From an uncultured Bacteroidia bacterium (GTDB taxonomy: Bacteria > Bacteroidota > Bacteroidia > JANWVE01): 39,036 nt of DNA. Position numbers and translations under genes: made by a program. The notes below the pieces were generated by a model, which ran no database searches, had not been told where the DNA came from, and worked only from the letters and a program-made list of their open reading frames with translations. Shown here piece after piece: positions 31,767 through 37,146 of this stretch. Numbering within the stretch: the first letter of the stretch is position 1; every line of letters begins with the position of its first letter. The stretch covers positions 1-39,036 of the forward strand of contig CALIZB010000168.1 of assembly GCA_938028625.1 (NCBI GenBank), read 5' to 3'.

Positions 31767-31862
31767 AATTAAAGTAAGTAATAGAATATAAATAGTTTTT
31801 GCAAGTTAAAAATAAAAATGGATTTTGTCAAGAAAAAATAAAAAAATCTTGTATTTATTTTG

Positions 31863-31870
31863 TTACTTTG
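31863..31870 (+). promoter_or_regulatory. Near-match -7 element of TPR-CHAT gene
   Basis: TTACTTTG (7 of 8 to TAnnTTTG), 4 nt before the ATG at 31875. No -33 box at normal spacing. Confidence 0.4.
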
Positions 31871-31874
31871 TAGT

Positions 31875-34778
31875 ATGAAACCATTAAAAATCAATCTTTT
31901 GCTTGTTTTAACTCTGTGCATCTCTCTGAATGCTCATGCACAAATTGGAAATTTGCTTAAAGATAAAATGAAAGAAAAAATAGACCAAAAAAAGGACAAT
32001 ATTGTACAGGAAGGTAAAGATAAGGTAAAAAATAAAAAGAGCGAACTTGTAGAAAATTTATTCAATACCAAAAAAGAATTTGACCCATCAGAATTGAACT
32101 ATGCGATTTCATTGAGTGATAATGCTGTACCTTTTGAAGCAGAAGAACGTTTTGGCAGAGCAAAAGATGTCTTGAAAACGGCTACCTATAAAACCGCTAC
32201 TGACCAAGAATATACTGCGTTAGACCGTGCTAAAAACCTTAAAGAAACAGGTGAGATGCTATATGGTTCTAATCGTTTAAAGAGTGCTGAACTTGTATTT
32301 TTGCAAGCTAAACAAATTATAGAAAACAACTCTCTTACCCAAGAACAAATTTATTCTGACGTTTTAGCTAACTTGGGTTTAGTGTACCATACAGCAGGTA
32401 GGTATTATGAAGCAGACAGTGTTTCTAAAAAAGCCGCCGAGCTTAGAAAACAAAAGTTTGGTGAAAAACACCTTTCTTATGCCGCTTCTTTGAATAATCT
32501 TGCCGCTTTATACAAAGAGAAAGGTGAATACACACAGTCAGAAAAATATATTGACCAGTGTATACAGATATATCAGACCTCACCGCAAAAGGACAGCATT
32601 CCGTATGCCATTGCACTGAATAATAAAGCTATTTTATTTCAAACCATAGGCAGAGCAAAAGATGCAGAACCCTTACAAAATAAAGCCCTAGACCTCGTAC
32701 AAGATAAATATGGGGGTAAGTCTAACGTGTACTTGCGCATGTTAGGAAATTTGGCTATTATGTACCAAGATTTAGAACGTTATGACGAAGCAGAGAAAGT
32801 GTACAAAAAAGCCATTACGATAAGAGAGAAAAAACTCGGTAGCAAACACCCTGACGTAGCCCGACTAAAACATAATCTTGCAGGTTTGTATGTTATCACA
32901 AAAAAATATGACCTCGTAGAACAAAACCTTAAAGATGCCGCAAATATTTACAAAGAAAAGTTTGGCGAAAATCACCCTTCTTATGCCAATGTTATTGAAG
33001 ATTTAGGTAATTTTTATGTGTTTCAAGAAAAGTATAATGAAGCAGAACCTTTGCTTACACAAGCGCTTTCTATTCGTGAAAATACCCTCAGCGAAAATCA
33101 CCCTGACGTAGCTAGTGCTATGGAAAGTTTAGCCATTTTGTATTGGAAAAAACAACAATTTACCCAAGCAAATACCCATTACCATAATGCATTAAAAAAG
33201 TACTTGATGCAAATTGCTACTCAATTCCCTGCTATGAGCGAACATGAAAAAACCGTATTCTGGAACTTAATACAGCCCAAATTTGAGCGTTTCTACAACT
33301 ATGTCCTGCAAGCAAGCCCAAAAGACCCATCTTTGCTTACTGATATGTATAACGCACAGCTAATTACCAAAGCACTTTTACTCAACACTACCTCTAAGAT
33401 AAAGCAAGCCATTCTCAATAGCAATAACCCTAACCTTATCGCGTTATACAATAAATACCTTGCTCAAAAAGAATATCTCACCCGAATATACACAATGAGC
33501 AAAGCCGAATTAGCAGAGCAAAAAATCAATGTAGATTCGCTTGAAAAAGCTACTAATGCCACAGAAAAACAACTCTCTGAACAGTCTCAATTTTTTAACG
33601 AAAATCTTAACCAAAAAATTATCAAAACAACGCATATACAAGAAAATCTCAAAGAAAATGAAGCCGCTATTGAAATATTCAGAATACGATATTACCACAA
33701 AACTTTCTCCGAAGACAGTGTACTGTATACCGCTTTAATCCTCAAAAAAAATTCTTCCTACCCTGAAAAAGTTATTTTACAACACGGAACTCAATTAGAA
33801 ACTACTTTTGCAGGCTACTATCGCAAAGCAATAAAAGCAAAATTAGAAGATGAAGAGTCTTTTAACGCATATTGGAAACCTATACACGAGAAACTAAAAG
33901 GTAAAACGCATATTTACGCATCTTTGGACGGTGTTTACAATCAAATCAGTTTGAATGGTTTACGTATCAGCAAAGGCAAATACCTTATAGATGAATATGA
34001 TATCAGTATAGTAACTAATACCAAAGAAATTATAGAAATTTCACGCCGAAAGCCTCATAAACCTAATTATGTGTCTATGATTGGCTATCCTGACTATCAA
34101 ATGAACGCTAATGTAGCTAAACCTACCATTAAAGATTTACCTGGTACAAAAGCAGAAATTGAAGCTATTCAAAAACTTCTCTCTACTAAAAATTGTAAAA
34201 CAGAAATTTATTTACAACAGAACGCAAAAGAAGAGGTCATCAAAAAATTAAACCAACCTGACGTATTACATATTGCCACTCATGGTTTCTTTTTAGCTAA
34301 CATAAACAAAAATAAAGAAAAAGTGTTCGGTATAGAAGCCGATAAAGCTAGAGAAATGCCAATGCTTCGCTCAGGTTTGATGTTTGCAGGAGCAGAAGCT
34401 ACCGTACAGAACATAAAATCCGCAGAAATATCCACAGAAAATAATGGCATTTTTACAGCTTATGAAGCCATGAACCTTAACCTTGATAATACCCAATTAG
34501 TAGTTCTCAGCGCTTGCGAAACAGGATTAGGGGAAGTAAAATCAGGTGAGGGCGTGTACGGATTACAACGCGCTTTTCAAATTGCAGGTACAGAAACCCT
34601 TATCATGAGTTTGTGGAAAGTAGCTGACGAACAAACCCAAGAACTTATGACCCTGTTCTACCAAAAATGGTTAAATTCAAATAACAAACACCTATCTTTT
34701 ATTGAAGCACAAAAAGAACTCAAAAAGAAATATCCTGAACCTTATTTTTGGGCGGCATTTGTATTAGTAGGTGAGTGA
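31875..34778 (+). CDS. Exported TPR-repeat CHAT-domain protease homologue
   Basis: 967 residues from ATG 31875 (the TTG at 31860 belongs to the promoter region). Signal peptide LLLVLTLCISLNAHAQ, a Lys/Glu-rich linker at about 25-60, then about seven kinesin-light-chain-like TPRs at about 130-440 (YAASLNNLAALYKEKGEYTQ, HPDVARLKHNLAGLYVITKK, HPSYANVIEDLGNFYVFQEK). A helical linker leads to a CHAT domain at about 640-967. The catalytic dyad of the caspase-like fold is visible: H803 in HIATHGFF and C881 in LSACETGLGE. The pattern is that of HetF/CHAT proteins, but the protein is exported to the periplasm. Substrate and trigger are unknown. It stands alone upstream of kdnA. Confidence 0.9.
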   Translation: MKPLKINLLLVLTLCISLNAHAQIGNLLKDKMKEKIDQKKDNIVQEGKDKVKNKKSELVENLFNTKKEFDPSELNYAISLSDNAVPFEAEERFGRAKDVLKTATYKTATDQEYTALDRAKNLKETGEMLYGSNRLKSAELVFLQAKQIIENNSLTQEQIYSDVLANLGLVYHTAGRYYEADSVSKKAAELRKQKFGEKHLSYAASLNNLAALYKEKGEYTQSEKYIDQCIQIYQTSPQKDSIPYAIALNNKAILFQTIGRAKDAEPLQNKALDLVQDKYGGKSNVYLRMLGNLAIMYQDLERYDEAEKVYKKAITIREKKLGSKHPDVARLKHNLAGLYVITKKYDLVEQNLKDAANIYKEKFGENHPSYANVIEDLGNFYVFQEKYNEAEPLLTQALSIRENTLSENHPDVASAMESLAILYWKKQQFTQANTHYHNALKKYLMQIATQFPAMSEHEKTVFWNLIQPKFERFYNYVLQASPKDPSLLTDMYNAQLITKALLLNTTSKIKQAILNSNNPNLIALYNKYLAQKEYLTRIYTMSKAELAEQKINVDSLEKATNATEKQLSEQSQFFNENLNQKIIKTTHIQENLKENEAAIEIFRIRYYHKTFSEDSVLYTALILKKNSSYPEKVILQHGTQLETTFAGYYRKAIKAKLEDEESFNAYWKPIHEKLKGKTHIYASLDGVYNQISLNGLRISKGKYLIDEYDISIVTNTKEIIEISRRKPHKPNYVSMIGYPDYQMNANVAKPTIKDLPGTKAEIEAIQKLLSTKNCKTEIYLQQNAKEEVIKKLNQPDVLHIATHGFFLANINKNKEKVFGIEADKAREMPMLRSGLMFAGAEATVQNIKSAEISTENNGIFTAYEAMNLNLDNTQLVVLSACETGLGEVKSGEGVYGLQRAFQIAGTETLIMSLWKVADEQTQELMTLFYQKWLNSNNKHLSFIEAQKELKKKYPEPYFWAAFVLVGE

Positions 34779-34844: not shown

Positions 34845-36056
34845 ATGCCAGGAACGGAAAAATTTGGAAAAGATGAACTCAATGAAGTCATGAGCGTAAT
34901 GGAAACAGGTATTTTATTTCGTTACAATCATGAAGCCCAAAGAAATAATATCTGGAAAGCCAAAGACTTTGAAAATGAAGTAAAAAAAATTACAGGTGCA
35001 AAATACGCATTAGCGGTAAGCAGTGGTTCTACGGCTATTTTAGCCGCATTAGTAGCATCGGGAATAGGTTATGGTGATGAAGTTATTGTACCCCCATTTA
35101 CGTACATAGCTACCATAGAAGCTGTTTTACTCGTTGGGGCTATTCCTGTATTCGCTGAAATAGATGAAACATTGTGTTTAAGTGCCGAAGGTATAGAAAA
35201 GGCCATTACTCACAGAACCAAAGCCGTATGCCTTGTACACATGTGCGGAGGTATGGCAAATATGGGTACTATTCTACCTGTACTACAAAAACATAATCTC
35301 GTTTTAGTAGAAGACGCAGGACAGGCTTTTGGTGCATCCTATAAAGGTACTCACACAGGACTATTTGGCAAAGCAGGCAGTTATTCTTTTGATTTCTTCA
35401 AAATTGCTACCGCAGGCGAAGGAGGAGTATTCGTTACTAATGACGAACATACTTACAAAATGGCAGAATATTTCTGCGACCATGGGCACACTCATGAAGG
35501 TAACAACAGAGGCATGGAAGCACACCCTATTGTAGGATTTAATTTCAGAATAAGCGAACTGCATGCCGCCGTAGGACTTGCCCAAACCCGAAGAGTGCCT
35601 GAAATTAAACAGACCAACCAAAAAAACAAAACTTTTTTACAAACCAAAATTCAATCCGAAGTTCCCGAAATACAGTTTAGTACCGTTCTTGACCCGCAAG
35701 GCGACTCTGCTACGTTTATGAACATGCTTATGCCTTCAACTGAACTTGCAAAAAATATGGTTCAAGAACTTAATAACGCAGGTATCGGCGGATTTAACTA
35801 CTGGTTTACCAACATGTACCATTTTATCAATCAATGGGAACATGTAAAACAACTCAAATTCCCGAATAAAATGGCTATTCATTATCAAAATATCCCGCAA
35901 GACTATAATGCCCTTCAATTACCTAAATCCCAAGAAGTAATAGGTAGATTGATTTCTTTTGGTATCCGCTGTACATGGACAGAGGAAGAACTTGACCAAC
36001 TTGCAAAAAATATCATAGCTTGCACAAAAAAAGTTCTTTCTAAAACTACTGTATAA
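34845..36056 (+). CDS. kdnA: 8-amino-3,8-dideoxy-manno-octulosonate (Kdo8N) aminotransferase
   Basis: 403 residues. DegT/AryC1-type PLP enzyme very like Shewanella KdnA throughout: MPGTEKFGKDELNEVMSVME, FRYNHEAQRN, AVSSGSTAIL, GDEVIVPPFTYIATIEAVLL, FAEIDETLCLSAEGIE, LVHMCGGMA, and SFDFFKIATAGEGGVF with PLP lysine K186, then HPIVGFNFRISELHAAVGLA. KdnA aminates the 8-oxo intermediate of Kdo made by KdnB. It precedes kdnB by 10 bp, so the pair is an operon. Generic sugar aminotransferase is the alternative, but the partner makes Kdo8N most likely. Confidence 0.87.
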   Translation: MPGTEKFGKDELNEVMSVMETGILFRYNHEAQRNNIWKAKDFENEVKKITGAKYALAVSSGSTAILAALVASGIGYGDEVIVPPFTYIATIEAVLLVGAIPVFAEIDETLCLSAEGIEKAITHRTKAVCLVHMCGGMANMGTILPVLQKHNLVLVEDAGQAFGASYKGTHTGLFGKAGSYSFDFFKIATAGEGGVFVTNDEHTYKMAEYFCDHGHTHEGNNRGMEAHPIVGFNFRISELHAAVGLAQTRRVPEIKQTNQKNKTFLQTKIQSEVPEIQFSTVLDPQGDSATFMNMLMPSTELAKNMVQELNNAGIGGFNYWFTNMYHFINQWEHVKQLKFPNKMAIHYQNIPQDYNALQLPKSQEVIGRLISFGIRCTWTEEELDQLAKNIIACTKKVLSKTTV

Positions 36057-36066
36057 CTCTATAAAT

Positions 36067-37146
36067 ATGTACAAGAATTTTAAGAACATAGAAAAAATTG
36101 TATTTGGCAGGGGAGCTTTTTCTCAACTCGGAGAAATTATAGAACCTATTAGAACGCAAAACAATCGTTATTTTGTCTATATTGTAGATAATTATTTCAA
36201 AGACAAAACTCTTGCCCAAAAACTGCAAAATCTGCCCGAAGATTTAGTCTATTTTATTGACGTAGACCCTTATGAACCTACTACCGAACAAGTAGACACG
36301 TTACGCGATGATATTCTGACTAAAAGAGGCTTGCCTTCCGGTGTAATTGGCATAGGTGGAGGTAGCATAATGGATATTGCCAAAGCCGTTTCGCTTATGC
36401 TTACTAATTCTGGTTCCTCGGTATTATATCAAGGTTTGAACTTGATAAAAAATCCAGGCGTGTATCATCTCGGCATTCCGACTATTTCAGGTACAGGGGC
36501 AGAAGTAAGCATGACTGCTGTACTCACAGGACCTGAAAAAAAACTTGGCTTAAAATGCGAATATACGGTATTTAATCAAGTTATCCTTGACCCTGAACTT
36601 ACTGCAACCGTTCCTATAGACAAGTGGTTTTATACAGGTATGGATACGTATATCCATTGCATAGAAAGTGAACAAGGTATTAACAAAAACGCATTTAGTA
36701 GCGCTTATGCGCAGCAAGCTATACAACTTTGTGAAGAGGTTTATCTCAATGAAAAATCAGGTAAAACTCCTGAAAATGACGATAAACTCATGGTAGCTTC
36801 GCTTATGGGTGCTTTAAGTCTTACGTATAGTGAAGTAGGTGTTTGCCATGCTATTAGTTATGGTTTATCTAAAATACTCGGGTATAAACATTGTTTTGCT
36901 AATTGTATTATTTTCCAACATTTAGAAGATATTTATCCCGAAGGTGTAAAAAAATTCAAAACAATGGTAGAAAAAAACCAAATTCAATTACCGCAAGGAT
37001 TAAGTAAAGAATGGAACGAAGATACTATCACTGCTATGGCAACCGTTTCATATAATCTACCTTTCATGTGGCGTCATGCTTTTGGAGAAAACTATCAAAA
37101 TATTGCTACATTAGAGTATATTAAAAATTTGTTCCGTAGATTGTAG
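36067..37146 (+). CDS. kdnB: 3-deoxy-manno-octulosonate 8-oxidase (Kdo 8-dehydrogenase)
   Basis: 359 residues. Iron-type (group III) alcohol dehydrogenase fold. FGRGAF, GVIGIGGGSIMDIAKAVSLM (nucleotide loop), TISGTGAEVSMTAVLTGPEK, and metal ligands in MDTYIHCIE, GVCHAISYGL and GYKHCFANC. It resembles Shewanella KdnB from the FKNIEKIVFGRG start to the FRRL end. KdnB oxidises the C8 hydroxyl of Kdo; KdnA then aminates it, giving 8-amino-Kdo for lipid A-linked core. No kdsA/kdsB in the window. Confidence 0.87.
   Translation: MYKNFKNIEKIVFGRGAFSQLGEIIEPIRTQNNRYFVYIVDNYFKDKTLAQKLQNLPEDLVYFIDVDPYEPTTEQVDTLRDDILTKRGLPSGVIGIGGGSIMDIAKAVSLMLTNSGSSVLYQGLNLIKNPGVYHLGIPTISGTGAEVSMTAVLTGPEKKLGLKCEYTVFNQVILDPELTATVPIDKWFYTGMDTYIHCIESEQGINKNAFSSAYAQQAIQLCEEVYLNEKSGKTPENDDKLMVASLMGALSLTYSEVGVCHAISYGLSKILGYKHCFANCIIFQHLEDIYPEGVKKFKTMVEKNQIQLPQGLSKEWNEDTITAMATVSYNLPFMWRHAFGENYQNIATLEYIKNLFRRL

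Follow-up and report, generated by a model that had tools for sequence, protein, structure and literature searches.

The closest described system to the locus studied here is the kdnA-kdnB pair of Shewanella, whose products convert Kdo to 8-amino-3,8-dideoxy-Kdo (Kdo8N). In that genus kdsB presumably adjoins the pair, the modification alters core LPS charge and antibiotic resistance, and mutants are reportedly more sensitive to polymyxin and bile. The C8 carbon of Shewanella Kdo8N resonates near 44 ppm. Kdo8N is 1 Da lighter than Kdo. The excerpts available of two papers describe Kdo8N as a Shewanella hallmark or as unique to Shewanella (PMC6357163, PMC3210612), and other excerpts mention a Leptospira strain with an annotated kdnB and a Pseudoalteromonas strain with an annotated amino-Kdo cytidylyltransferase. 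In the open-licence literature, no report was seen that linked Kdo8N to Bacteroidota or to the specificity of KdsB.

The window, by which we mean the whole 39,036-nucleotide stretch analysed, comes from an uncultured Bacteroidia bacterium and carries two intact open reading frames on the forward strand, kdnA (34845-36056, 403 aa), encoding a putative PLP-dependent 8-amino-Kdo transaminase, and kdnB (36067-37146, 359 aa), encoding a putative iron-dependent Kdo 8-oxidase, separated by a gap of 10 bp (36057-36066). Using phmmer, the top solved structure for KdnA was 5k8b (E 1.5e-120, 406 bits, residues 1-390, 47% identity), and those for KdnB were 3rf7 (399 bits) and 5k8c (390 bits, 51% identity); we take 5k8b and 5k8c to be KdnA and KdnB of Shewanella oneidensis, and 3rf7 to be a KdnB homolog. 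The KdnA alignment is gapless from the MPG start to the PLP lysine K186 (codon 35400-35402). KdnB keeps all four residues that, from the iron-ADH family, we presume to be its iron ligands, namely D193 (36643-36645), H197 (36655-36657), H261 (36847-36849) and H275 (36889-36891), a span of 36643-36891 in which these residues are invariant with 5k8c. The next solved relatives were perosamine synthase for KdnA (163 bits) and a methanol dehydrogenase for KdnB (90 bits), giving bit-score leads of more than 240 and of about 300, respectively. Pfam placed the proteins in DegT_DnrJ_EryC1 and Fe-ADH, whilst NCBIfam returned no match over cut-off for either and none named KdnA or KdnB. The initial annotation, which had proposed full-length homologs of the Shewanella pair with the lysine, the iron ligands, the short gap and the order kdnA-kdnB, is thus borne out, and the closest characterized relatives are KdnA and KdnB rather than other aminotransferases or dehydrogenases. 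Neither flanking gene is a Kdo gene: a TPR-CHAT protein gene (31860-34778, same strand) ends 66 bp upstream of kdnA, and a DUF6029 gene lies downstream of kdnB on the opposite strand.

We next consider the Kdo genes KdsA, KdsB and WaaA, which were looked for in the draft genome from which the window derives (2.90 Mb, 170 contigs, 99% complete). One protein exceeded the KdsB family cut-off (TIGR00466, 222 bits, contig C51:15997-16698), KdsA was found above cut-off on contig C135 (342 bits), and WaaA was found at C51:41097-41618. With all three present, most of the steps that precede and follow the pair are accounted for, at dispersed positions in the genome; the kdnA-kdnB genes, on contig C168, are unlinked to any of them, and kdsB, as had been noted from the window, does not adjoin the pair. 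On these grounds, together with the gene-order and KdsB comparisons below, we predict, with a probability of roughly 0.87, that kdnA-kdnB convert Kdo to Kdo8N, which would be fed through a retuned KdsB into LPS. KdnB would oxidize Kdo at its C8 hydroxyl, and KdnA would transaminate the resulting aldehyde to give Kdo8N; the sole KdsB found in the genome would then form CMP-Kdo8N, and WaaA would move the sugar onto lipid A. If the amino sugar is made, KdsB must accept it.

Two congeners were available, as the family and order draws near this genome came to three genomes in total. KdnA was absent from both (G001 and G002). WaaA (PF04413) was not found in either draft, nor KdsB in G002, so these drafts may miss genes. 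G001, which lacks KdnA, has two diverged KdsB copies (loci L088 and L114). Horizontal transfer of kdnAB into the genus was considered by comparing KdnA with KdsB identity, but the data were too slight to decide: at a KdsB identity of 45-50%, KdnA of this genome shares 67.6% identity with its relatives and the relatives share 61.9% among themselves.

Gene order was compared in the best 80 of at least 547 loci with KdnA relatives, obtained from one scan of genome contigs; a Bacteroidota taxon is given in 79 of these 80 records, the remaining one reading only 'bacterium'. As flanks extended to at most 4 kb, all neighbor counts are lower bounds. Of the 80 loci, 61 also had KdnB, and 51 of these had kdnB following kdnA by less than 200 bp on the same strand. 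The KdsA of this genome matched a gene in at least 42 of the 80 (>250 bits); in 38 the KdsA gene began no more than 250 bp downstream of kdnB, in the same orientation. Chryseolinea serpens (locus L068) is one species in which kdsA follows kdnA-kdnB. Other neighbors were WaaA (at least 15 loci), a transaldolase/CBS protein (at least 21), a KdsC-like protein (at least 13) and full-length KdsB (at least three, plus three KdsB cut by the locus end). Neighbors were clustered and one representative of each cluster was named with NCBIfam and Pfam. The KdsA representative lay above its cut-off, that of the WaaA relatives above the Pfam kdotransferase cut-off and below the NCBIfam one, and the KdsC-like HAD representative below cut-off. 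The fullest order seen was waaA, kdnA, kdnB, kdsA, transaldolase/CBS, kdsC-like, kdsB, with most loci missing parts of it. In a draw of 296 genomes across the phylum, 15 of the 22 genomes with KdnB had kdsB no more than 5 kb from kdnB, including one with consecutive kdnA-kdsB-kdnB (G198); in genomes of several Mb, such linkage would hardly ever arise if genes were placed at random.

Two further families accompany these loci. A fusion of fructose-6-phosphate aldolase/transaldolase with a KdsD-like CBS part was found near kdnA in 21 of the 80 loci (for example L050, 7246-8256), and in five of the 296 phylum genomes, four of them with KdnA; this genome encodes one at C109:9540-10547. The fusion may supply arabinose-5-phosphate instead of KdsD. 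A family of about 150 aa was seen near kdnA in 23 loci (for example L038, 1737-2195), and its representative had no Pfam or NCBIfam match.

In the phylum draw, KdnA was found in 19 genomes (threshold E 1e-70) and KdnB in 22 (E 1e-60), all 19 lying within the 22. The three genomes with KdnB and no KdnA at these thresholds were G120, G147 and G171. G120 (locus L167) has a kdsB-HAD-kdnB cluster in which KdnB is 42% identical and KdsB lacks the glutamate described below, so that this KdnB relative may have a different role. No KdnA relative was detected in the viral contigs and plasmids scanned.

Turning to KdsB, a variant preferring Kdo8N had been suggested as something to look for elsewhere in the genome, and a candidate was found there. 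KdsB of this genome is about 40% identical to E. coli KdsB and shares its family (TIGR00466), but carries a glutamate, E142, at the position of E. coli A141 (site A); at the position of E. coli G233 (site B) it stays glycine. E. coli KdsB and five solved KdsB sequences lack this glutamate, the five having T/A/A/A/V at site A and G/G/G/G/G at site B. Shewanella KdsB presumably has glutamate at site B. In a first comparison, glutamate was present in 19/19 KdsB proteins of genomes with KdnA (site A in 5, site B in 14) and in 0/46 from genomes without it. The comparison was repeated with 50 KdsB from 49 further KdnA-positive genomes and with 60 further KdnA-negative genomes. The new positives came from 50 of the 80 loci, KdsB being missing from one of the genomes. 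In the joint alignment, all 69 KdsB rows from KdnA-positive genomes had glutamate, 54 of them at site A and 15 at site B. Among KdnA-negative rows it occurred at neither site in any of 107, comprising E. coli and 106 Bacteroidota rows from 106 of the 196 drawn genomes having KdsB and lacking both KdnA and KdnB, taken in part from the higher-scoring matches listed. It was also absent from five ambiguous rows (KdsB of the KdnB-only genomes G120, G147 and G171, and the two G001 copies). Three of the 50 new rows had shown a site-A gap beside a glutamate in the first alignment, owing to a one-residue deletion, and the glutamate fell on site A in the joint alignment. Cysteine occupied site B in 48 of the 54 site-A proteins, KdsB of this genome keeping its glycine there. 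Among 1209 residue features, taken singly or paired, glutamate at A or B was the only perfect classifier. One genome, G336 (loci L212 and L225), has two KdsB copies, one with glutamate at site A and the other at site B. KdsB thus appears, from these alignments, to be retuned to match kdnAB in every examined genome carrying the pair, and KdsB of this genome, which bears the kdnAB-linked signature, may prefer Kdo8N.

Site B is two residues ahead of the conserved aspartate in the (V/I)DTPED motif, which is probably equivalent to Aquifex D219, given as a ligand of the catalytic Mg in the portion available of PMC3149649. Site A is 16 residues ahead of the arginine of the FSR motif, just before the strand leading to it, and an excerpt of PMC7717453 assigns this motif to substrate binding. 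The Kdo contacts described in the excerpts (Gln98, the FSR motif, and D95 and D219 of Aquifex) include neither site. A KdsB fold prediction had a mean pLDDT of 41.8 and was unusable, with neither glutamate placed beside C8, and we make no structural claim from it. The glutamate, near the Kdo pocket at residue 142 here and at the G233 position elsewhere, would probably pair with the C8 ammonium of Kdo8N.

The destination of the sugar could differ from that proposed above, if Kdo8N served a capsule or other glycan, or if modification were partial and the main LPS Kdo were plain. We consider this unlikely. KdsB of this genome has at site B the glycine common in genomes lacking KdnA, some KdsB may take both sugars, and G336 shows that one genome can hold a copy of each KdsB class; against this, the one KdsB over the family cut-off in this genome is itself glutamate-bearing, and waaA, encoding the lipid A Kdo transferase, lies beside the pair in 15 of the 80 loci. 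Delivery of Kdo8N to lipid A through WaaA is the reading that we retain.

To weigh the glutamate against descent, we used a KdsB tree of 181 rows, a quick LG+G4 tree built with the site columns left out and with several long branches flagged. Genomes with KdnAB cluster on this tree, which has 9 changes of kdnAB state, so that the genome counts above overstate the number of independent events. Among independent pairs differing in kdnAB, the glutamate differed likewise in 8/8 (sign test p = 0.0078). The closest contrast lies within the genus itself, where KdsB of this genome groups with both G001 copies (support 99), sharing 73% identity with the closer of them, and has Glu142 where both of those have threonine. 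That the glutamate reflects lineage drift, independent of substrate, could be argued from the clustering and from the quick tree with its flagged branches, but is improbable given the agreement of every contrast, the glutamate being confined to KdsB of this genome within its well-supported group, and the holding of a signature drawn from 19 + 46 proteins on 50 + 60 new ones. Very improbable is a sister function of the pair on some other ulosonate or nucleotide sugar (a nonulosonate or O-antigen sugar), for which the wide substrate range of DegT and iron-ADH proteins, the separation of the pair from Kdo genes in this genome and the modest identity to Shewanella could be cited, but under which the large score gap to every other solved member of both families and the linkage of kdsA, kdsB and waaA to the pair in relatives would be unexpected, and the KdsB substitution would have no reason to follow kdnAB.

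Support for the modified Kdo that the initial annotation had read from the window thus comes from sequence, from gene order and from coevolution, and Kdo8N is predicted to be present in the LPS of this organism. If made, it would add a positive charge beside lipid A, and an effect on LPS charge or antibiotic resistance in this organism might follow. We also think it fairly probable that CMP-Kdo synthetases have been converted to the use of Kdo8N repeatedly, through one glutamate at either site, and that this glutamate marks amino-Kdo lipid A. Repeated conversion of this kind would allow sequence to reveal which Gram-negatives link lipid A through amino-Kdo, and the builders so marked would include many Bacteroidota for which we found no report. 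The KdsB glutamate would then offer a specificity switch that can be put to the test in an enzyme of LPS synthesis, and would flag modified Kdo from sequence. With the pathway in 19/296 sampled Bacteroidota genomes, it would, if true, be an inner-core modification that crosses phyla.

Compared with known systems, the pair shares with Shewanella KdnA and KdnB its full length, its catalytic residues, the pairing of its genes and an identity of 47% and 51%. It differs in its Bacteroidota host, in the order kdnA-kdnB and in having kdsB on a separate contig; in other loci of this phylum kdsA or kdsB joins it. The DegT sugar aminotransferases, perosamine synthase among them, share the fold family and the PLP lysine of KdnA, but the perosamine synthase match is 240 bits weaker than that of 5k8b and is limited to residues 41-256. 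As judged from these comparisons, another phylum most likely has the Shewanella pathway here, in different gene orders and with KdsB adapted in sequence in no fewer than two ways.
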